A stretch of 64,000 nucleotides of DNA from Sulfurisphaera ohwakuensis. Its GTDB lineage: Archaea > Thermoproteota > Thermoprotei_A > Sulfolobales > Sulfolobaceae. Location of the stretch: positions 1,984,001-2,048,000 of the forward strand of contig NZ_CP045484.1 of assembly GCF_009729055.1 (NCBI RefSeq). The letters run 5' to 3'. Of the stretch, positions 223 to 14,478 are shown piece after piece. The notes under the pieces are model-generated. The model did not search any database. It was given only the letters and a program-made list of their open reading frames with translations, and was not told the DNA's origin. Every line of letters starts with the position of its first letter. Within the stretch, counting starts at the first letter, position 1. A program made the translations under genes and the position numbers.

Positions 223-1686
223 ATGGAAGAGTTGTTAATGTCTTTTAAGCTGAAGGCTCTTTATCCGTTAACCGGAGGATATAATAGGCATAGCATAAAC
301 CAGTTTTATGAAGAGAGTGTTAGGCCTACAGAGATTAAGGGATTGTGGAGGTGGTGGAATAGGGTTTTATTTAATACTGTAAGTCATGCTAATGGAGGTA
401 AGCTCTATACTTATGATTCTATAGATAGACTTTTCGAGGACGTTTTTGGAGGAGAGAACATGAAGTCTGCAGTGAGGTTAGAGGTAATAAGTGATGAGGA
501 TAACAATAATCGATTTGAGTTATTTGATGTAGAGTTAGATAAGGCAATAGATTGCTTAAAGAACTATAAGGGGAAAGTGACTGTAGACTTAAAAGATAAC
601 GAAATAGTAATCAAAACAGAAAATTCCTCAATTCCTATAGTTTTTAAATCTAATTTAGATGTAAGTAAAATCAAGGATCTAGTGTACAATAATAAACTTC
701 TTAACTTTGATCTCTTAGGTTTTAAGAGTATCTATATAGACACTACTAAAATTTCTAATAAAGAGATCCTCAGGGAAATTTTACGCGATTTAATTACGAA
801 TTATTTAGAGTACTTTAACATTAAGCAAGAAGTCACATTTACTCTTAACATTTATTTAGATAAGAATCGTGAGAAAGTATACGAGAGTAACCAAAAGGTT
901 AAGCAAAATTTTGGCTTTAATGATAAGCTTAAGTTTGCATTATACAGCTTATTAATTTTTATACTGCTTGGAGGGATTGGTAGAAAAGCTAATAGGGGAT
1001 TTGGTAGTTTGTCAATAGTAGATGTTAAGTGTTATGATAATATGTGTGAAGAAATAGAAAATTTAGCTAAAAGTTTTCTCTTAATTTGTAATGAAAACGA
1101 ATTAAGAGGCAAAATATATTCTATTTTAGATGGCGCTAAAAAGTTGTATGTTAATACACAATACTTTGGAAATAATTCACTATTGGAAATAGATCCTAAG
1201 AAAAATGTTGTATATTTCATAAATACTGACTTATTAGAGATCAGAAAGATAAAAAGTAAAGAGAAAGTATTAACTAATATTCCTAAGGCTGTATTATCAA
1301 ATGGAGATTGTATCAAATCTATTACTCAAATTCAAGATAAATATGCAAGAAAATCTTTCCTAGTAGCCTTTGGAGGGTATAGGGAACTTAAAAGAGATAT
1401 AAGATGGATCAAAAACTTTCTTTGCGAGACTTCTGAGACTGTTCCGTCATTTAATATAGTAGATTTTCCAGTTTCAGCTAATGAAGACTCATTCATGAGC
1501 AAGTACGTACTTTACCATAAACATAGGAGCTCATTACTAAGGTTTAAACTAATTAGTGATAAAAAAGATAACTCTTATCTTATTAATTATATTCTTTACT
1601 CATCCTACTTCAAAAAAATTGATATTAAATTAATTAGTGATATACTACGAGAATTAACTTCTTGTGTGATTCAAAATGACAATTGA
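223..1686 (+). CDS. cmr1: Cmr1, type III-B CRISPR RAMP subunit
   Basis: This RAMP protein is expected to sit at the target 3'-end (head) side of the Cmr complex. The N-terminal RAMP fold shows the Cmr1 hallmark RPTEIKGLWRWWNR at residues 34-47, and a glycine-rich stretch GGIGRKANRGFGS lies near residue 250-265. The length of 487 aa suits a two-RAMP-domain Cmr1. The chosen ATG follows the cmr5 stop with no gap and has a GAGGGGAGGT Shine-Dalgarno-like run before it; an in-frame ATG five codons later is a weaker alternative. The last 11 bases overlap cmr6, which indicates translational coupling. Confidence 0.93.
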   Translation: MEELLMSFKLKALYPLTGGYNRHSINQFYEESVRPTEIKGLWRWWNRVLFNTVSHANGGKLYTYDSIDRLFEDVFGGENMKSAVRLEVISDEDNNNRFELFDVELDKAIDCLKNYKGKVTVDLKDNEIVIKTENSSIPIVFKSNLDVSKIKDLVYNNKLLNFDLLGFKSIYIDTTKISNKEILREILRDLITNYLEYFNIKQEVTFTLNIYLDKNREKVYESNQKVKQNFGFNDKLKFALYSLLIFILLGGIGRKANRGFGSLSIVDVKCYDNMCEEIENLAKSFLLICNENELRGKIYSILDGAKKLYVNTQYFGNNSLLEIDPKKNVVYFINTDLLEIRKIKSKEKVLTNIPKAVLSNGDCIKSITQIQDKYARKSFLVAFGGYRELKRDIRWIKNFLCETSETVPSFNIVDFPVSANEDSFMSKYVLYHKHRSSLLRFKLISDKKDNSYLINYILYSSYFKKIDIKLISDILRELTSCVIQNDN

Positions 1687-2521
1687 TTTTTTAGTTAATA
1701 TCTTAAAAATAATTAATGAAGAAAAATGTAATATTAACTTATTCTCAGCATTAAGTTTAACTAGCATAGTATACAATAACTTAGAAGAATTTATTTCTGA
1801 AAAATCTCATTCAAACAGCCAAACATATAGTGAAAATAATCTCCTAATAAAATATAAAATATTAAACCTAGACGAGAAAGAGAAGAAAAACCTATTTAAG
1901 AAGGAGATAGCTGAACTTATCTCAAAGAACTTTAAATTAAAGGGCGAAGAAGTAAGGGAATTCTTTAATAACCTTAAAGGAATACTAAAGTCGTTAAAGT
2001 ACACAGTAGTAGATGTTGAAATAACTACTAGGACAAGAGCTCTAGTTGGAGTTTCAACATCTTTGGGCAAGCTAATTTTCGATTCTGGGATCTCTTTTGA
2101 TCCCTACATGAATTTGCCTTACATACCTGCTTCTGAAATTAAAGGTATTGTGAGAAGTTACATTGAAGATAAATTAGGTAAGCAAGAAGCTAAGGAAATT
2201 TTTGGAGACGAGGAAAGAGAAGGGAGTGTAAACTTTACAGACGCTTACCCCGTGAGAGCTGAGAGTTTCGTTTTTGTTCCGGATATAATTACACCGCATT
2301 ATAATGGGAAGAAGTCTGAGGCTGATGTAGAGCCTAAGCCGATTATATATTTAACAATTGCCCCTAAGGTGACTTTTCGCTTTTTAATTTACTACAAAAG
2401 GGAAGATGTTGGAAAACCTCTATGTGACGTACTGCCCTTAGTAATTACGAGAGGTTTAGGGGCTAGATCCTCGGTAGGATATTCCTTATTTGAATTGAGT
2501 AAGATAGAGGTGATAAGATGA
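1676..2521 (+). CDS. cmr6: Cmr6, type III-B CRISPR RAMP subunit
   Basis: Cmr6 is a backbone RAMP located next to Cmr1 in the complex. After a helical lead of about 110 residues, the RAMP core shows TRALVGVSTSLGK, the loop YIPASEIKGIVRSYIED near residue 160, a FTDAYPV/ITPHYN segment, and the C-terminal glycine-rich loop GLGARSSVGYSLFEL. This succession is characteristic of Cmr6. It overlaps cmr1 by 11 bases and cmr2 by 4 bases (ATGA), so all are read from one transcript. The size of 281 aa is normal for Cmr6. Confidence 0.92.
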   Translation: MTIDFLVNILKIINEEKCNINLFSALSLTSIVYNNLEEFISEKSHSNSQTYSENNLLIKYKILNLDEKEKKNLFKKEIAELISKNFKLKGEEVREFFNNLKGILKSLKYTVVDVEITTRTRALVGVSTSLGKLIFDSGISFDPYMNLPYIPASEIKGIVRSYIEDKLGKQEAKEIFGDEEREGSVNFTDAYPVRAESFVFVPDIITPHYNGKKSEADVEPKPIIYLTIAPKVTFRFLIYYKREDVGKPLCDVLPLVITRGLGARSSVGYSLFELSKIEVIR

Positions 2522-5500
2522 GTGAAAATAATATTTCTAGAGGAGAATTCTTAAATTATAAAATTACGGCATTACTTCATGATCCTCCAAATAAGGCATG
2601 GGTAATAACAGGCCGTGCAACAACATTAACATCACAATTAAATAAAGTTAACACTAAGAAAAAGCATGAAGAAGTCGCTAAGTATATACTCAATCAATTA
2701 TTTAGTATAAATTATAGCTACTATAGTAACAAAGTTGGCAAAGCAGATAATATAGCTAGTTCCGTAGATAGATATTTAGGTAGTATTGTATATAAAGAAC
2801 ATAGCTTTTTTAGAAATAGAGAAATATTCTTAAAGAATATACTTTCACCCGACATTCAAAGAGTTGTAAATAATTTATTTCCTGAAGATAAATCTAAATT
2901 AGATAATTTAATATCAAGATATAATAATCTATTAAATGCTATAAGATCCACTAATCTCAATGTTTCGAAATATCAGCTGTTTTACTTAATATACGAATTA
3001 GTATGGATAGAATCTGGGTATGAAAATAGTCCTTCAGATACTAGAAATCCTACTCATACAATTTTTGACCATTTATACGCAACTGCTGCAATGATGAACT
3101 GGATATTAACATTTAAAGATAAAGAAAGGGGAGGAAATAAAGGGAAAGGTTACTTGCTAGGAATAGATACTATAGGCGTTGCTGACTTCATAAGTAAGGG
3201 AAGGAAGACTAGGGACTTATGGATTTCCAGCTATTTAGTCTCTGCACTGCTCTGGTACGTAATTACCTGGTTCATTGAGGAATACGGTCTAGACGTTGTA
3301 CTATTCCCCTCGTTAAGGTTTAATCAATTTTATGCGTTTTATCTTTTAGAAAAATTAAGAAAAGAAGGGGTATCAGAGGATGTTATAGATGAAGTAAAGG
3401 AGTTAATAACTAAGTACATATTTAATGGTGACGATCTGTTTGAGGATTTGAAAATACCACCTTATCCAATAATTCCAGGTAGGGTTACGTTAATTTTACC
3501 GGGGTTAATAAGGGAAGGTGAAGAATATAAGAATCTTTCGGACGACGATTACTTTATCTCTAAGGCAAAGGATAGGTATAACGAGGGTTGGCGTAAACTA
3601 ATTGAGGGATTAAAGCTTTATTCTGAAAGAAGGAGAGAAGACGGTTTTTGGAATTTAGTGTGTAGAGTGCTAACTTTGACTGAAGATCTCCTTCAAATAA
3701 CTCCCTTAAACATTCGTGTGAAACAAGTGAGTGTAACTAAGGACGAAATATTTGATAAAAATGGTAGTTTACGCTCAGATGCATGGAAGGTTTACGACAA
3801 TAAGTATCGCAAGTTGGTTAGTGAATTTAAAAGGAGTAAGTTAGTTAAAGTTACTCCAGAATCACGCTTAAAATTATTCGAATTAACTAAATTTGATAAG
3901 TTACCTCAAATCGGTGAGAAGTCTAAGAGGGGTTATGAGTTCTGTACATCATGCGGAGTTTTGCCTGCAGTAGTTATTATGCCTAAAGAGGAAGACTTCG
4001 AGAAAAAATTAATTGACTCTGGAATAGCCAGCAATGAGAATGACGTTAAGTCGATCAAGAACATGATATCACCAGGTGAGAGGCTTTGCCCATGGTGTTT
4101 GGTTAAAAGGGCTTTAGGAGCTGAACCTAGGCTTTTAAGGATTTTACTTCTGGGTGATCTTTATAGTGTTGAAGATATAGTTGACGAGATTATAAATGAG
4201 GAAACAAAGAATAATGGAAATAATAAGAAGATAGAGATACCATCTACTAGCGATATTGCATCAATTAAGACCTTTGAGGAGATGATTGAGAAGAAGGACG
4301 AGCTATGTAAGGAGTTAGATAATGAAATATGCAAGCAAGTGCCAGAAAGGCTTTCCATGTGGAAATGGTTTAATGAAAACAAGTCAAAAGGGATAAATCT
4401 TACCATAGACCCGGAAGAATATTGGTTTAGTGAAGAACGTAGAAGATATTATTTCTCTATCTTTAGAAGATATGGAATAACTTTTCCTTCACCTTATTAC
4501 GCTTTGATTAGGGCTGATAGCGACTATTTAGGTGATTTATTAGAGGGTAAACTAACACCTTATTTAGCGGGAATTATTGATTCTGGAGATTATGCTAATA
4601 TTGCTGAAAAGAAGGAAGAGATTGTTAAGTTTTTAGAGGATTACTTATTAAACGCCGGTAGCGGGAGAATAGTAGAATATGTAAAAAATGTTATATATTG
4701 TATAAGTGCTAGAGAAGATACGTCTAGGTGTCCTTGTGCAGTAAAAATTTACTCCGATGAAATTGCGAGATCTAGATATAAAAATAGCATAAATGTTGAA
4801 AAGAGTGTCGAAAACTCGATTAATTATTTTAAAGAAATACTCAGAGAAGGAAGGATAATAGTTACTCCGGCTTGGCACGTTTCAATTTCTTCTGCACTTA
4901 ACAGAGGGCTTATTGCTGAGATAAATTTGATTAATAAACATAAAGGATTCGTCATATATGCTGGTGGGGATGATTTACTCGCTTTACTCCCTGTAAGCGA
5001 AGTTTTAGATTTTATTAAGGAAAGTAGGAAAGCATTTGCAGGATATGGAGGCAGAATAGGTAATTTATATTTAGAAAACGGTTTTGTAGAGTTTAATAAT
5101 GCGTATTACCCATCCTTACCAACAGTAGGGAGGAGTTATTCCGTAATAATTTCTCATTATGCAGACCCCTTATCAATGGTAGTTAATGAGTCCTATTACT
5201 TACTGGAAGAGGGAAAGGAAATGGTGAGTATATATAATGGAGATAAAAGAATGAAGAAGGATATTGCAATCTTTGAATATCATAAGTTATTATCTGTGAT
5301 TCCACTGTCTTTAAATAGGCCTATAGTATCTTCAGTGAGGGATTTTAATGATATTGCAAGTATCATAGATCTAATTTTAACGTTAAAGAAGAAGATTGAT
5401 GAAGGGGAAATTTCAACTTCATTACTTTATGATTACGATAATTACAGAGATTTGATAAGTTCAGAGAACGGTTCATCTCTTATAGAATTTTTGCTAAAAT

Positions 5501-5667
5501 ATTGGATAAGAAGAAATTCTGCATCTCTTAAAGATGTAGATGAGCTAATGAGTCTATTTAAACCGGAGTACTTTACAACTAAAATGAAGTCAAGAGGTTA
5601 TCATTTTAAGGAGGATCTAGTATCTAATGTAGTTTACGCTTTAAGGATAATTTATGGTGGTGCATGA
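2518..5667 (+). CDS. cmr2: Cmr2 (Cas10), type III-B signature subunit with HD and GGDD palm
   Basis: This is the large Cas10-family subunit. An N-terminal HD motif lies in ALLHDPPNKAW (H21-D22). A zinc finger is formed by CTSC (C476, C479) and CPWC (C524, C527). The second palm carries an intact AGGDD motif (G816-D819), the catalytic site for cyclic oligoadenylate synthesis in active Cas10 proteins. The length is 1049 aa. The family HD domain is a target-activated DNase, but only the core HD pair can be seen here and the full metal site was not checked. The start overlaps cmr6 and the stop overlaps cmr3 (ATGATGA), as expected for a co-translated complex. Confidence 0.96.
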   Translation: MSENNISRGEFLNYKITALLHDPPNKAWVITGRATTLTSQLNKVNTKKKHEEVAKYILNQLFSINYSYYSNKVGKADNIASSVDRYLGSIVYKEHSFFRNREIFLKNILSPDIQRVVNNLFPEDKSKLDNLISRYNNLLNAIRSTNLNVSKYQLFYLIYELVWIESGYENSPSDTRNPTHTIFDHLYATAAMMNWILTFKDKERGGNKGKGYLLGIDTIGVADFISKGRKTRDLWISSYLVSALLWYVITWFIEEYGLDVVLFPSLRFNQFYAFYLLEKLRKEGVSEDVIDEVKELITKYIFNGDDLFEDLKIPPYPIIPGRVTLILPGLIREGEEYKNLSDDDYFISKAKDRYNEGWRKLIEGLKLYSERRREDGFWNLVCRVLTLTEDLLQITPLNIRVKQVSVTKDEIFDKNGSLRSDAWKVYDNKYRKLVSEFKRSKLVKVTPESRLKLFELTKFDKLPQIGEKSKRGYEFCTSCGVLPAVVIMPKEEDFEKKLIDSGIASNENDVKSIKNMISPGERLCPWCLVKRALGAEPRLLRILLLGDLYSVEDIVDEIINEETKNNGNNKKIEIPSTSDIASIKTFEEMIEKKDELCKELDNEICKQVPERLSMWKWFNENKSKGINLTIDPEEYWFSEERRRYYFSIFRRYGITFPSPYYALIRADSDYLGDLLEGKLTPYLAGIIDSGDYANIAEKKEEIVKFLEDYLLNAGSGRIVEYVKNVIYCISAREDTSRCPCAVKIYSDEIARSRYKNSINVEKSVENSINYFKEILREGRIIVTPAWHVSISSALNRGLIAEINLINKHKGFVIYAGGDDLLALLPVSEVLDFIKESRKAFAGYGGRIGNLYLENGFVEFNNAYYPSLPTVGRSYSVIISHYADPLSMVVNESYYLLEEGKEMVSIYNGDKRMKKDIAIFEYHKLLSVIPLSLNRPIVSSVRDFNDIASIIDLILTLKKKIDEGEISTSLLYDYDNYRDLISSENGSSLIEFLLKYWIRRNSASLKDVDELMSLFKPEYFTTKMKSRGYHFKEDLVSNVVYALRIIYGGA

Positions 5668-6659
5668 TGAAGAAGATTAGGATAAGGCCTTTAGAGCCGT
5701 TAATGCTGAGGACTCAAGGAGAGTTTGAACCATTAGTTACTGGTTCTCACACTTCTGCACAATCATTGGTAATTCCCAGACCTTCAACGATAGCCGGACT
5801 TTTAGGATACCTTAAATTTAATGGAAATGTAACGGAAGATTGGCTTGATACCTTAATTCACCAATTAGGAGATGATGTAAAGATTTACGGAACTTTAATA
5901 GAGAGTGATGATGAAAACTATTTTTACCCATTAAGAATGGGGAATCTGTTTGCTCTCGTTAATAGAGAAGCCTTATGTCCTTTGCCAAAAATTTTTGAAA
6001 GTATAAGTGAAAGGTACGAAAAGTGGGAAAAAGAAATTTACGATATTTTTTATGGAGAGAAGAATAAACTTTTTGAATTAATTGATTTTCAAGATAGGAT
6101 TGGAATAGGTTTAGATAGGCAAAAGAAGACAGCTAAGGAGCATTATCTATATACTGCAAGATACTTATCTTTCAAGAAGGAGATAAGATATGTAATATTC
6201 GTGGAGGGTAACCTGGAACTAAAAGAGACTGTAGTTAATTTTGGTGGGGAAGGAAGAATTGCTAAGCTAGAAGTAGAGGATGAGGACAGTGTGGTAGCTA
6301 CAAACTTGTCTGGAGATTATTATCTTGTAGTATCCCCGATTTTGGTACCAGATAATATTATAGACAATATCTTAGAAGAGGATTTAATAGTTATGGGAAA
6401 AGTGGATAAGATTAGTTTAGGATTTAATATCGCTCACAATAGGAGGAAAGAGATACTAACTGCAGTACTTGAAGGTAGTGTAATTAAGAAGAAATTTATT
6501 GAAAGATATAATGTACTTATTAATAATAATTCTAGTGATAATGACTTGTTTTCAAAATACGAAAAAATAGGATATAATACAATTTCTAGGATAGATTGTC
6601 AAAATATGGAAATGAGAAAATTATTAGATGGCAATGATAGTGTCGTCATTAAGCTATAA
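5664..6659 (+). CDS. cmr3: Cmr3, type III-B CRISPR RAMP subunit (crRNA 5' tag side)
   Basis: Cmr3 binds Cmr2 and caps the 5' repeat tag of the crRNA. The N-terminus IRPLEPLMLRTQGEF followed by PRPSTIAGLLGYL (residues ~33-46) is typical of Cmr3/Cas5-like RAMPs. The length of 331 aa is in the family range. Two adjacent ATG codons (5664 and 5667) can serve as start and both couple to the cmr2 stop. It is the last gene of the operon; no further cas gene follows before the minus-strand glycosyltransferase. Confidence 0.9.
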   Translation: MMKKIRIRPLEPLMLRTQGEFEPLVTGSHTSAQSLVIPRPSTIAGLLGYLKFNGNVTEDWLDTLIHQLGDDVKIYGTLIESDDENYFYPLRMGNLFALVNREALCPLPKIFESISERYEKWEKEIYDIFYGEKNKLFELIDFQDRIGIGLDRQKKTAKEHYLYTARYLSFKKEIRYVIFVEGNLELKETVVNFGGEGRIAKLEVEDEDSVVATNLSGDYYLVVSPILVPDNIIDNILEEDLIVMGKVDKISLGFNIAHNRRKEILTAVLEGSVIKKKFIERYNVLINNNSSDNDLFSKYEKIGYNTISRIDCQNMEMRKLLDGNDSVVIKL

Positions 6660-7014: not shown

Positions 7015-8076
7015 TTACCCATATATTTTAGATAATAATTCGTATAATTTTCTAGCATGGTTAGTCCAACTCAAGCTTTTAGCAATTTCCCAAGAGTTAA
7101 TGCTCATTTTCTTCCTTAAATTTTCATCTTCCAATATCTCATTTATTCTATCCACAGCTTCATCCCAATCTCTTACCACATATCCGTTATCTTTTATTAG
7201 TTCCTTACTACCCAAACCCTCATTCACTATTACGGGCATCCCAGCTCCCATAGCTTCTAAAACTCCCATACCAGGCCCTTTTTCATTAAAACCGAATCGT
7301 ATTAGCACTGATGCTTTATCATAAAGTTCTTGCAGTTTGCTCTCTGAAATAGGCCCGGTTATTATTACCTCCTTATATTTGCTCATGAATTCGTTTAATG
7401 TGTCTTGTCTAGTCCAGTATCCCGCCATTACCAGTTTTCCCTTAATTTTTTTACTAATCTCCCCGTAAATCTCAGGCCTTCTTCCAGAATCCCATACTGA
7501 AACTGCCAAGACAATCTTTTCTCTCTCAAGATTTATTTTCTCTCTGGGATAACAACCGGGATATACTACTTCAGCGTTAAAGCCCTTACTAGCTAAGATC
7601 TCTTTGTTCCATTTACTGTTCGTGATTATTAATTTGCTCTTCTCTAAAATTTTTTTCTCCATAAATTTGGGTAAAGCCCATTTTATTCCTTTGTTATCAA
7701 AAGAGGTTTCATGAATGTAAATTGCGTAATCTTCTCCGTGTTTTATTTTCCTTAAATACCCCGTTAACCCGGCAAATTGGTCGTGAAATAATGCGGGTCC
7801 TTTAATTATATCACTGGCTTTTATGATTCTGTCTAAGTCTACTGTAGCTTCATCTCCCCTCTGACCTGCATAAATAGATGTTAACACTTTAAAAATCCAC
7901 TTAGATTTACCGTCAAAAAGGACTTTCACATCTATGTTAGAAAGATCATATTGTGTCCCGGCATGTCTGTAAACTATTAGTGTACTTTTCATATTCCTGG
8001 CTTCTTCAACCGCAACTCTAGTAACTCCTCCTTTCCAAAGGATTCTTAGCACGATGTTTATCTTCTCATCTTTCAT
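7015..8076 (-). CDS. glycosyltransferase, family 4 (GT-B fold)
   Basis: The 353-aa protein has a two-lobed GT-B layout. The C-terminal half holds the nucleotide-sugar binding region [19 protein letters not shown] followed by [16 protein letters not shown], a GT4-type E-x(n)-E region in which the spacing between the two glutamates is one residue longer than the usual EX7E. The N-terminus ([18 protein letters not shown]) fits the donor/acceptor Rossmann lobe. No membrane segment is seen, so it is probably peripheral and cytosolic, acting on a glycan or lipid acceptor that cannot be read from sequence. It is a single gene between the cmr operon and mobile debris; the next minus-strand feature upstream is 170 bases away. 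Confidence 0.85.
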
Positions 8077-8247: not shown

Positions 8248-9022
8248 TTACTGATATATTATAACGTTTAAGCCTTTTGCGTAACCCCTTACAGCTTTAC
8301 TAATCTTTGTACCAGCAAGTACCGGGATAATCCTTTTGGCTTGATACTCCTTCTCAACTTCCTTAACTTTAGTTAATAAATCATCAACATCCTTAATCTC
8401 AGCCCTAAACTTAACCTCAATAACATAAACAGCCCTATCAGTCTCAACAAGAGCATCAACCTCAACAACAGAAGTCTCATAATGCCTATAAACACTAACC
8501 ACTTTTTTCGCCCCCTTCTTTAATACTACCCAAAAAATTACTAACAAAAAACGACTCAGTAAGAACACCCAAATCACTCCTAAGAGCTGAAACCTCACCC
8601 TTCACCTCATTAATCTTAGCCTCAAGCTCACTCTTCATCCTCCCATCATTCTCTAGTAGTTCTTTCTTTATTCTTTCATCATTCTCTAGTAGCTCCTTCT
8701 TAACACCATTAACATATTCTATTATTTCTTTCTTCACTCTTTCATCGTTCTCCAATAATTCCTTCTTAGACTTATCGACATATTCTATTATTTCTTTCTT
8801 TATTCTTTCATCATTAGTTAATAGTTCTTCTCTAGTTTTTCTTATTTCATCCCTTAAACTCCTCTCCAACTCCTCTATCTTCTTCTCAAAAGATTGTGAA
8901 TAGATATACGTTAGGGCAATATAAATCTCAGTATTTGTTAACTCTTGTCCACTCTTCAGTTTCTCAACTATCTTCAAAATACTCTCACTGAACCACTTTG
9001 CAATTTCATCTTCCATAGTCAT
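8248..9022 (-). pseudogene. coiled-coil PD-(D/E)XK nuclease-like protein (DUF3782 type), frameshifted
   Basis: Two overlapping frames form one gene. The first half starts at ATG 9022 or 9016 (MEDEIAKWFSE) and carries a charged coiled coil of repeated units such as KKELLENDERVKKEIIEYV, then SDLGVLTESFFVSNFLGS. The second half continues in the next frame with KKVVSVYRHYETSVVEVDALVE and YVIEVKFRAEIKD, a D...ExK arrangement typical of PD-(D/E)XK nucleases. The frames meet at a run of five G (minus strand, near 8511-8515); removing one G would restore IKEGAKKVV. An upstream ATG at 9124 only adds an unlikely leader. It could be a pseudogene, a sequencing error or a slippage-controlled gene. The family is common in Sulfolobales and its function is not settled. 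Confidence 0.75.
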
Positions 9023-9349: not shown

Positions 9350-9668
9350 CAATAAATGCTATTTGTGATAGTAGGTTGTAGAGTACAACGAAAACATCTG
9401 GGTCATAGTCTTTCCACAGTCTTATAACTTATTTCTACACTTGTCAAGTTAAGTAGTGATGCTAGTTCTGCTGTTTCCCTATTTGTTAACAAGTATTCCT
9501 TTTATTAGTATGTATGCTTTTTCTTGTGGTGTTAGTTTACTCTTCCTCCCCAGCTCATTCCCTAACGAATTTTGCAGTCTTTTCCAAGTCTTCCTTCAAC
9601 TCTTGCCCAAATCTCCTCAACGTTGTCAACCTTTCCTCCTCACTCATCTCAGCAGTTTTCTCCTTGTC
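9350..9668 (-). pseudogene. decayed ORF, probable transposase N-terminal remnant
   Basis: Reading the minus strand gives a continuous protein-like series only if frames are switched several times: DKEKTAEMSEEERLTTLRRF near 9665-9605 running to KFVRE and a stop, then ELGRKSKLTPQEKAYILIKG in another frame to a stop near 9490, then TAELASLLNLTSVEISYKTV, then DPDVFVVLYNLLSQ ending near 9360. Each junction is a one- or two-base shift. The helical, HTH-like character and the position among insertion-sequence debris suggest the N-terminal part of a Sulfolobales transposase. The family is not identified. No intact ORF survives. Confidence 0.55.
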
Positions 9669-10030
9669 ACGGGGCATTGCCCCATTCATCCCTCTCCGTC
9701 CCTTTAGCGGGATAACCTATATAGGTTTTATTAGCCCTAACCCACACCCGTGGAATATCACGGATGTGAGGAAACCCGCACATCTTAAGGTAGATATTTA
9801 GAGATGCATTCAACTGCCTATCAAGGGCGAACCCACACCTCTCGCAACGAAAAAGTTCTGCCAACCTTTCGGGAAACCCATCCACATCTGGGACAGGACC
9901 TAGATGTGAGGTATGGGTTCACCTCCTTTACAAAAGAACCGTAAAGGGGAGCCTTATACCTCAACACACGGTGTAAAGTCCTCCATACAGTCTTCGATAT
10001 CTTCCTAGAGTATATAAACCCATGGTGTAG
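9667..10030 (-). pseudogene. tnpB: TnpB (IS200/IS605) C-terminal remnant, frameshifted
   Basis: This is the C-terminal part of an OrfB/TnpB protein. From about 10030 the frame reads SRKISKTVWRTLHRVLRYK, then VNPYLTSRSCPRCGWVSRKV (first half of the TnpB zinc ribbon). The second half, FRCERCGFALDRQLNASLNI with the D-R-x-x-N-A RuvC III motif, lies in a neighbouring frame. The shift maps to a run of five T (minus strand) near 9850, where one T fewer would give GRTFRCERCGF. A stop near 10036 and the loss of everything upstream (RuvC I and II) show that it is dead. It stands back to back with another tnpB remnant on the plus strand. Confidence 0.85.
9671..9683 (-). repeat. GC hairpin at the 3' end of the tnpB remnant
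   Basis: GGGGC-ATT-GCCCC is a perfect 5-bp stem with a 3-base loop at the very end of the minus-strand tnpB remnant. IS200/IS605 elements carry hairpins at their right end, where the guide (omega) RNA scaffold of TnpB is also encoded. Hairpins of matching style sit at the ends of the two other tnpB remnants in this window. Confidence 0.5.
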
Positions 10031-10107: not shown

Positions 10108-10614
10108 TTGGGTTATCCTAGGAATCTCTCCTTCTACAGGTGGAGGGAGAATAAGCGTATTATGGCTAGGATTAGGCATTTTTACGCTAAGGCTAAGAGA
10201 ATTATGGAGGACTTTGCTAGAAAGGTTGGGAAGTGGGTTGTTAAGGTTGCTAAGGATTTTGTTGTTGATGTTATTAAACTGGAAAATTTGAGGAATATGA
10301 TTAAGCGCGTGAAAGGATTACCTTCTGAGTTTAGGGATAGGTTGTATTTGATTCAGTATCGTAGAATTCAATATTGGGTTGAGTGGCAAGCTAAGAAGCA
10401 CGGCTTGTTGGTTCAATATGTTAATCCTAGTTATTCTTCTGTTTTATGTCCTAAGTGTGGTAATAAGATGAGGGAGGTTTCATATCGTTGGTTTAAGTGT
10501 GGTTGTGGTTATGAGAATGATAGGGATGTTATTGCTGTAGTTAATTTGAATAGGAGGGGGTCTCTGACCCTCTCGTCTGCCCCTCAAATGAGGGATGTAG
10601 ACCCGAACCGATGA
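10108..10614 (+). pseudogene. tnpB: TnpB (IS200/IS605), N-terminally truncated
   Basis: The 168-residue frame covers the end of the RuvC-like Tnp[21 protein letters not shown], then [20 protein letters not shown], the zinc ribbon CPKCGNKM...[20 protein letters not shown] with the final RuvC Asp in NDRD, and the usual tail [12 protein letters not shown]. Full-length TnpB is about 400 residues, so the first half with RuvC I is missing and no true start can be assigned. Upstream sequence (10070-10140) has TnpB-like scraps in another frame. It belongs to a different tnpB type from the minus-strand remnant beside it. It is likely inactive as a nuclease. Confidence 0.85.
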
Positions 10615-12353: not shown

Positions 12354-12854
12354 TTAAGGAATTGGTAACATGACTACCTTGTTTATAACTTTTTTTGTTA
12401 ACTGAGAAATTAAGTTATCCCAAATTTCATTTAGTGATCTACCTTTTGGTTTTATTTTCAGCTGAGACGCAACATTCTTTAAGCCGTATTTGCATTCTGC
12501 CTTTAATGGGCAAGAATCGCACTTGTATTTATCAGAATTTAGATCAATTAGGACTAATCCATTTTTAGTAACAGATAATAATGCTTTATCGAGGACTATT
12601 TTATCATTTTCAACAACAAAAGGAATCACAGTGGCAGAAACTAAAGCATTATCTTCTATTAGTCCGACATTTTTATAGAAATCTAAAATGTAGTAATAAT
12701 AGCTTTTACTAAGCCCGTCTCTATCTTGGGAAATGAGAACCCTAAAATATTTTTCATCAAATATCTTATTAAATATTTCTCTACTCACTAACAATATCTT
12801 TTCAGTTTTTTTCAACGGTCTATCATATTTACTCAGCTTATAATCACACATCAA
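12354..12854 (-). CDS. unidentified protein with C-x2-C-x5-C motif
   Basis: The 166-aa protein is not assigned to a known family. The N-terminal two thirds look like a small alpha/beta or winged-helix fold (SREIFNKIFDEKYFRVLISQ, then a predicted strand region VSATVIPFVVENDKIVLDKA). A cysteine cluster CDSCPLKAECKYG near residue 114-126 could bind zinc or an Fe-S cluster. The conserved-looking tail KPKGRSLNEIWDNLI follows. It is soluble, with no signal peptide. It stands alone between the PaREP1 pair and an insertion sequence, so context gives only an accessory-region setting. Confidence 0.6.
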   Translation of the reverse strand: MMCDYKLSKYDRPLKKTEKILLVSREIFNKIFDEKYFRVLISQDRDGLSKSYYYYILDFYKNVGLIEDNALVSATVIPFVVENDKIVLDKALLSVTKNGLVLIDLNSDKYKCDSCPLKAECKYGLKNVASQLKIKPKGRSLNEIWDNLISQLTKKVINKVVMLPIP

Positions 12855-13013
12855 TTATATATATTGTAAAATCAAAATATATTTCTTAAACGTTGGACTA
12901 ATTAAATACTCCTTTAAACTATGAAAATATAAAAAGTAGTTAGACCTACGCAACTAGTTTAAATTACGCAGTTAGCATTTATAGGAAAATCCTTGCAGTT
13001 TAAGGGCACCTTG

Positions 13014-13030
13014 AAAACTTTTTAAAAATT
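13014..13030 (+). promoter_or_regulatory. TATA-box promoter of the transposase gene
   Basis: CTTTTTAAAAATT lies about 20-30 bases before the ATG at 13049, the usual Sulfolobus spacing for a leaderless transcript. It sits inside the element, downstream of the left inverted repeat. Confidence 0.5.
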
Positions 13031-13048
13031 AACTGACAAAAGTATTGG

Positions 13049-14116
13049 ATGAATACAAACTCATTACTCCAAGCGTATTACAATGCACTTCAAGAAGCAC
13101 TCCAACAAATATTCATCGCCTTGACTAGCTTGAGAAAAGACACACTAGCAAAACTAGTACTTGGAGGAGTAATGGGTGGAACAGCAACAGAAATAGCCCA
13201 AGCAACGGGCATGGACTACGAGACAGTACTAAAAAACCTTAACAAACTAGCAAACACAAACCTGATCAAAATAGTAAAAGAGATAGTACAAGACCACCCA
13301 GTACAACTAATAATAGATGACACACATGATCACAAACAACACGCAAGAGCACTACCAGTATCAAGAAACGGAGCACAAGTCTTCTACTGCAGAGAACACA
13401 AAAGATACGAACCAACAATACAACTACTCATAATAGCAATAAAAGACTTGAAAACAAACGAAACCTACATAGTAACAATAATACCCTACATACCACAAAA
13501 GGTTGTTGAGATATTAAGGGAGAGGGGAGAGGAGGTTGAGTTCAAGACAAAGATACAAGAATACTTGGAAACATTGCCAATTCTCGAGAAGGAGTTTAAT
13601 GTTGTGTGCAAGGTTTTTGATTCTTGGTATGTTAATTCTAGGACTCTTTTATCTAATACCGTCGGGGAACTCAAGGCCAACTCGCGGGTCACCGAGGGTG
13701 GTAGGCTCGTGCCAGTTGGCGAGTTCCCCGAGGGGGAATACCTAGTTGAGTATTTAGGTATTCCCATAAAATTACTTGTAATAGATGATTATAAGGGTTT
13801 TGGAAGGAGGTACTTCTTCTCCACAAACGTTAATGATACTGCTGAGGAAATAATAACTACATGGGAGAATCGTTGGGATATTGAGGTTTTGATTAGGGAG
13901 CTTAAAGCCTTGGGATTGGAGAAAGGTTCTTTCCTCACTTGGGTTAGGAATAAGGGGTTTATAACCCTTAAGGCTCTCTCCTTACTCTTGGTACTCTTGT
14001 TTAAGTATTCCCTTGGTTTGTATTTGGGTGCCAAGAGGATAGCAAGGGTGATAAAAAGTATTTATCAATCTTTGGGCGGGATTAAGAAACTTTTTAAGAG
14101 AAGGAAAAAGACGTAA
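13049..14116 (+). CDS. DDE transposase, ISH3/IS4-like
   Basis: The 355-aa transposase appears complete. A predicted helix-turn-helix (GGTATEIAQATGMDYETVLK) near residues 30-50 would bind the ends. Acidic catalytic candidates are D in LIIDDTHDHK (~92), D in KVFDSWYVNSR (~197) and E in WENRWDIEVLIRELKALGL (~285), the last matching the Y/W-x-x-R-W-x-I-E...E..K signature of IS4-superfamily enzymes. The basic C-terminus (KKLFKRRKKT) fits DNA binding. The reading frame is uninterrupted, so the element may be active. The 5' third is A/C-rich while the rest is G/T-rich, and a long palindrome interrupts the middle. Confidence 0.88.
   Translation: MNTNSLLQAYYNALQEALQQIFIALTSLRKDTLAKLVLGGVMGGTATEIAQATGMDYETVLKNLNKLANTNLIKIVKEIVQDHPVQLIIDDTHDHKQHARALPVSRNGAQVFYCREHKRYEPTIQLLIIAIKDLKTNETYIVTIIPYIPQKVVEILRERGEEVEFKTKIQEYLETLPILEKEFNVVCKVFDSWYVNSRTLLSNTVGELKANSRVTEGGRLVPVGEFPEGEYLVEYLGIPIKLLVIDDYKGFGRRYFFSTNVNDTAEEIITTWENRWDIEVLIRELKALGLEKGSFLTWVRNKGFITLKALSLLLVLLFKYSLGLYLGAKRIARVIKSIYQSLGGIKKLFKRRKKT
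13663..13730. repeat. long imperfect palindrome inside the transposase gene
   Basis: The left arm CGGGGAACTC-AAG-GCCAACT pairs with the right arm AGTTGGC-GAGTTCCCCG: a 10-bp and a 7-bp helix separated by a 3-base bulge, enclosing about 31 bases. It is the most GC-rich part of an otherwise AT-rich gene and encodes GELKANSRVTEGGRLVPVGE. It could form a cruciform in DNA or a stable hairpin in mRNA. Confidence 0.85.
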
Positions 14117-14198
14117 AATGCTAACGCAGTGTTTACCCTTGGCGTAACTTATGCTTATTTTTGACTATTTCTGATTCCGCCATGGCACATCTATGTGA

Positions 14199-14285
14199 GC
14201 TACCCCGCCCTGAAGGGCGGAGCTTCCTGCTTCATAGCCCCACCTTGCCCGTAGCTTTTCGCTACGGGTAGAGGGTGGAGCTCCA
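14199..14285 (-). ncRNA. IS200/IS605 right end, omega-RNA-like double hairpin
   Basis: On the minus strand, a stem CCCGTAGC/GCTACGGG (14248-14268, 5-base loop) is extended by CCACC/GGTGG (14240-14244 with 14274-14278). A terminal CCGCCC-TGAA-GGGCGG hairpin (14205-14220) follows, then GGTAGCTCAC. This nested arrangement at the end of tnpB is what a TnpB guide-RNA scaffold and transposon right end look like. The structure is seen in sequence; expression is inferred. Confidence 0.55.
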
Positions 14286-14478
14286 CAGGCACTAAGGATG
14301 GCTCCCACCCCGATCTCTTCAATATGTTTAAGGAAGCGTTATAGTCACGATCAGTAACCCAACCGCACTTAGGACAGCTGAACACACGGTCAGTCAAAGT
14401 TAACTCTTTCTTTACGTACCCGCATTTGGCACACATCTTTGAAGTATATGCTGGGTTTATAAACATAATAAAGATCAT
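14200..14478 (-). pseudogene. tnpB: TnpB (IS200/IS605) C-terminal fragment
   Basis: This 92-residue fragment contains the complete TnpB zinc ribbon and last RuvC motif: [20 protein letters not shown], then [20 protein letters not shown], with the tail [16 protein letters not shown] common to one Sulfolobales tnpB type. More than 300 N-terminal residues of a normal TnpB are absent, so it cannot be a functional nuclease. The minus-strand insertion ends at a GC hairpin at its 3' end. It lies 50 bases from the right end of the DDE insertion sequence. Confidence 0.85.

Follow-up and report, generated by a model that had tools for sequence, protein, structure and literature searches.

Within the window – the whole 64,000-nucleotide stretch analysed, from the hot-spring archaeon Sulfurisphaera ohwakuensis – two overlapping open reading frames (ORFs) lie in different frames of the minus strand between positions 8248 and 9022. 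The features discussed below, with the evidence for those of the broken gene, are as follows:

8248–9022, minus strand: broken coiled-coil/PD-(D/E)XK gene, both halves (ORFs and comparison with homologues)
8495–9022, minus strand: frame-0 half, with the N-terminal part and the coiled coil, plus helix 1 from the nuclease domain (sequence)
8248–8502, minus strand: nuclease-frame half, after the break (sequence)
8582–8851, minus strand: coiled coil of 11-residue (hendecad) repeats (self-identity by lag)
8251–8581, minus strand: PD-(D/E)XK nuclease domain, extending across the break (motif and predicted fold)
8511–8515, minus strand: G5 run (five G also in the intact relatives G003 and G023)
8503–8508, minus strand: A6 run with an extra base compared with G003, which has A4 and then G (DNA alignment)
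223–6659, plus strand: type III-B genes cmr1, cmr6, cas10/cmr2 and cmr3
7015–8076, minus strand: glycosyltransferase gene, also found downstream of the G003 orthologue

Frame 0 runs from an ATG at 9022 (or 9016) to a TAG at 8497–8495, giving 175 residues from ATG 9022, and the nuclease frame stays open to a TAA at 8250–8248. The nuclease frame has a GTG at 8502 that immediately follows the A run and precedes the frame-0 stop by 5 nt; it is a possible start for a product of 84 residues. Joined by read-through, the halves make a protein of 255 residues from ATG 9016, much as the sequence-only reading had proposed (about 260). The join is a real one and not a chance pairing, as orthologues in three other genomes are uninterrupted at this point.

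The protein begins with a short N-terminal part (about 55 residues), followed by the coiled coil and then by the PD-(D/E)XK domain. The repeat unit of the coil stands out in the self-identity of six sequences, which is 0.36–0.51 at a lag of 11 residues and 0.02–0.10 at a lag of seven. The lengths of the window gene and its orthologues (255, 310, 321 and 244 residues) differ by whole elevens; two paralogues, of 339 and 317 residues, are 22 apart from each other but not whole elevens from the orthologues. Across the window gene and the loci L012, L013 and L017, the length of the rod thus changes by 11-residue units while the register is kept.

Motif and predicted fold both support the nuclease-like end that had been proposed. 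Across 38 family sequences, all non-identical and 60 letters or longer, with the window's included, the D of the D...ExK motif is kept in 37 and the E and K in all 38, and the window gene retains all three; a Glu in helix 1 is likewise E in all 25 family sequences that have a letter at that position, the other 13 having gaps there. A model of the read-through domain, computed from the read-through sequence and three sequences from two relatives, has a mean pLDDT of 88.8, and its alpha-beta-beta-beta-alpha-beta core matches NucS, AF1548, Can2 and type IIS enzymes. The best Foldseek match is NucS/EndoMS (5gke_A, E 1.6e-5); VIA-align gives 2vld_B a Z score of 13.0 (2.8 Å over 101 residues), with AF1548 next at 12.0 and values of about 9 to 10.5 for Can2, Card1 and type IIS enzymes. 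Folded alone, the C-terminal half gives a poor model (pLDDT 62.3; best match E 2.2e-3). Sequence matches to solved structures were set aside as uninformative, the 60 listed of 93 being helical stretches such as apolipoproteins and haemagglutinin.

In the read-through model, the break falls in the loop between helix 1 (residues 3–22 of the domain) and strand 1 (residues 27–35), so that the helix-1 Glu lies in one half and the D...ExK motif in the other. Neither half carries all four conserved positions, which are the Glu of helix 1 and the three motif residues.

Several known systems invite comparison. The likeness to the catalytic domain of NucS/EndoMS lies in the predicted fold and the D...ExK motif; here, however, the domain follows a coiled coil, and the window copy is frame-broken. 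Pfam NucS_C scores of 21.2 and 22.1 bits stay under the cut-off of 24, and those for NCBIfam NucS (20.5 and 23) under its cut-off of 252. A similar layout is seen in the crenarchaeal PD-(D/E)XK endonucleases described in PMC4786415, which combine an N-terminal coiled coil, grouped by Pfam as DUF3782, with a C-terminal nuclease domain; yet their coils are described there as nonads, whereas the unit in the window gene is 11 residues. A search of the S. ohwakuensis genome with DUF3782 (PF12644) returned three matches at E 0.001, two of them over the cut-off, and none at 1992251–1993016, the place of the window gene. A literature search by terms found no paper that combines hendecad, coiled coil, nuclease and archaea. 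Can2 and Card1, ancillary nucleases of type III CRISPR systems, share the PD-(D/E)XK core (7bdv_A, Z 10.5; 6wxw_A, Z 9.1). Unlike them, neither half of the window gene has a CARF domain listed by Pfam, and the relatives' stretches show no DNA match to cmr genes past the end of cmr3. The PADLOC matches of the read-through protein and of the C-terminal half were all weak (best E 0.0079).

The gene had been placed next to the cmr operon, which is true in a loose sense: it lies close by, but cmr3 ends at 6659 and the glycosyltransferase gene intervenes. In G003, the same glycosyltransferase gene follows the intact orthologue at a distance of about 4.8 kb. Among the stretches taken from relatives, no DNA match of more than 150 columns to the cmr genes was found, except for one of 237 columns in G003, which takes in the final bases of cmr3 and the sequence after them. 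On these DNA comparisons, a role in the CRISPR system finds no backing in the surroundings of the gene. A scan with bacterial-type promoter and terminator models, which are ill-suited to archaea, found nothing above shuffled sequence.

The nearest relatives of the gene are continuous: G003 (310 residues, 93% identical to the read-through), G002 (321 residues, 78%) and G023 (244 residues, 80%). At the level of the genus, three of four genomes have a match at E 1e-5, the gene's own included, with none in G001 at that threshold; at the level of the family, the count is 12 of 31, again with its own, and for the phylum a match to alignment A2 at 1e-6 is seen in 37 of 300 genomes. The gene family is spread through the phylum. 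A more distant paralogue of 339 residues lies uninterrupted in the same genome (1773724–1774737). A search of IMG/VR with alignment A2 found no viral relatives, and a scan of named genomes confirmed no locus with the query P0001 and two loci with A2.

Among the 72 matched stretches of the phylum listed, seven contain in-frame stops: the window gene and six others. A broken family member occurs outside the window too: G023 has a second, more diverged copy (L027, G023:C1:136192-136656) with two TAG stops. A contig of 11.5 kb from Sulfolobales archaeon Acd1 bears two near-identical nuclease domains (L072:3613-3936 and L072:5929-6252), oppositely oriented and close to its end.

At the break point itself, five of five homologous sites – those of G003, G002 and G023, of the paralogue in the same genome (L014) and of a paralogue in G003 (L015) – read continuously. 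The sequence-only reading had rightly recognised a frame break and attributed it to one extra G in the G5 run. That position does not hold: G003 and G023, both intact, read GGGGGT at the site (G002 and the paralogues differ there), which makes G5 ancestral and rules it out as the site of the break. With homologous sites lined up, the window reads GGGGGCGAAAAAAGTGG where G003 reads GGGGGTGAAAAGGTGG, the extra base being in the A run, and the DNA alignment likewise puts a single extra base there (window GAAAAAAGTGG, G003 GAAAAGGTGG). On these sequences, the simplest reading is that one base was inserted after the split from G003.

We consider it likely, with a probability of about three in four, that the window carries a nascent loss-of-function allele – one nuclease gene broken by the gain of a single base after its lineage parted from that of G003. 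The locus was originally a single gene, its product nuclease-like, of PD-(D/E)XK type and borne on a coiled coil; comparison shows that one base was then gained in the A run, inside the nuclease domain. By the sequence, translation from the usual start now stops within two codons (Ser, Gly) past the run and leaves a 175-residue protein that has the coil and helix 1 and lacks the nuclease core, so that probably no functional nuclease is made. As neither half has all four conserved positions, nuclease function is, to judge by sequence, most likely lost. The frame is broken and intact orthologues exist in G003, G002 and G023, as expected of a loss-of-function allele; in a survey of frame transitions (PMC3711429), singletons are described as likely indel mutations or sequencing errors. 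A joined protein may be made at a low level, which counts against the loss reading.

How old the break is can be judged from the substitutions around it. Compared with G003, the first 65 codons have a dN of 0.026 and a dS of 0.223, the 40 codons before the break 0.033 and 0.081, and the 84 codons after it 0.031 and 0.117, segments that leave out the repeats in between. Long divergence of both halves at a neutral rate, named beforehand as evidence against the sequence-only reading, is not what is seen, dN being below dS on either side of the break. When changes were polarised with G002 and G023 (leaving two nonsynonymous and seven synonymous changes unpolarised and uncounted), nonsynonymous and synonymous substitutions stood at 6:5 on the window branch and 5:3 on the G003 branch (Fisher p = 1). 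On the window branch, the downstream half has 4:2 and the upstream half 2:3 (Fisher p = 0.57), with tiny numbers throughout. The polarised counts, small as they are, give no sign of relaxed selection between branches or between halves, a point against the loss reading; on that account the break is probably recent. As far as the sequence tells, it is either very young or tolerated, and recent enough, on the first of these readings, for the remainder of the gene to be still undecayed. A Gly-to-Val change next to the motif, private to the window among seven A2 sequences, was considered as a sign of decay and dropped, Val occupying that position in 10 of 37 other family sequences.

An error of sequencing or assembly, leaving the true gene intact, would suit a homopolymer such as the A run, which is a classic site of error, and an otherwise undecayed gene. 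Yet the closed genome of S. ohwakuensis DSM 12421 is described as resting on 362x PacBio and 481x Illumina coverage with short-read correction (PMC7067957). In a comparison with 120 kb of G003 – taking G003 ORFs of at least 100 residues that are matched in the window at 85% identity or more over at least 200 bases, leaving out ORFs overlapped for more than half by a longer one, and covering 47,652 bases – the window gene alone among 60 ORFs has a frame-breaking indel (a length not divisible by three), the other 59 being free of them. The best matching piece covers 0.55 of the G003 ORF for the broken gene and 0.41 for one row at the window end, and 0.99 or more for the rest. Within the matched stretches of all 60 ORFs, A/T runs number 70 at length six, 18 at seven and one at eight, 89 in all, and there are 12 G/C runs of five or six. 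With sequencing so deep and short-read corrected, and with one ORF in 60 broken despite 89 A/T runs of at least six, the error that the sequence-only reading had offered as an option is unlikely.

The other readings take the break as real and ask what might still be made across it. Translational coupling, by which ribosomes ending at TAG 8497 would restart at GTG 8502 and yield a separate 84-residue nuclease core acting with the coil protein, is unlikely. It has in its favour the position of the nuclease-frame GTG, which adjoins the A run and has the frame-0 stop 5 nt further on, the good conservation of both halves, and the standing of coupled overlapping frames as a recognised class in PMC3711429; but the cut parts helix 1 and its conserved Glu from the core, the overlap is due solely to the new break (the relatives lined up with it are continuous), and ahead of the GTG there is a G-rich stretch alone, with no clear Shine–Dalgarno sequence established. 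Marginally less likely is recoding, in which transcriptional slippage on the A6 run or ribosomal frameshifting would supply some full-length protein. Here the precedent is fucA1 of Saccharolobus solfataricus, for which PMC8211752 describes −1 frameshifting at A-AAA-AAT, the A stretch of full-length Sulfolobales genes being one shorter; in both cases two overlapping ORFs are parted at an A run longer than that of intact relatives. The window shift, however, is opposite in direction and lacks a matching slippery heptamer. No X-XXY-YYZ heptamer is present in frame – frame 0 reads GGC GAA AAA AGT – and it is the +1 frame that encodes the nuclease, so fucA1-type frameshifting fits poorly: the shift needed is +1 (or −2), and a −1 shift would give 44 unrelated residues and then a stop. 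Downstream RNA structure is unremarkable (z −0.90), and the break is absent from all five homologous sites. As to slippage, an A6 run falls short of nine A/T, the length at which, according to PMC1088944, a large share of the genomes studied there show selection against slippage, though the run length needed varies and some bacteria may, by the same account, slip on shorter runs.

It is very unlikely that the overlap yields a coil protein with helix 1 alongside a coupled or occasionally fused nuclease core, two proteins from one ancestral gene, by which a once tethered nuclease would have turned into a two-part or low-dose one. Were a two-product reading true, the undecayed state of the halves would reflect selection and not youth. 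Any joined or coupled product, if found, would add to very few archaeal cases: according to the 2021 review in PMC8211752, a single case of −1 frameshifting had been reported for archaea, and events in some viruses of archaea are mentioned there as well. Several points speak against the slippage switch with two products that the sequence-only reading had entertained: five G are the ancestral state, the A run has only six bases, none of the five homologous sites shares the break, and the cut falls inside the nuclease domain. Of the options put forward, recent decay, understood as a break of recent date, has the best support: orthologues are intact, the break is private among the compared sites and the halves are well preserved. 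The locus looks like an ordinary, lineage-specific break rather than a hidden switch; the analysis corrects the site of that break and points to a recent, lineage-specific loss in a family found phylum-wide.

The DNA on the far side of the gene holds some features of separate interest. Three ORFs (9667–9885, 10108–10614 and 14200–14478) contain the zinc-finger domain of TnpB/Cas12f-like proteins (Pfam PF07282); they fall short of the length of a whole TnpB and are, on that account, apparently remnants of mobile elements. Between 11046 and 11766 lie two neighbouring PaREP1-family ORFs with a slight overlap and near-identical stretches. A transposase gene of the ISC1217 type (13049–14116) sits inside a stretch, at about 12969–14124, that has further copies in G003. 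This element adjoins the 5' end of an ORF at 12354–12854 that is longer in G003 (199 residues) and that the element may have clipped.
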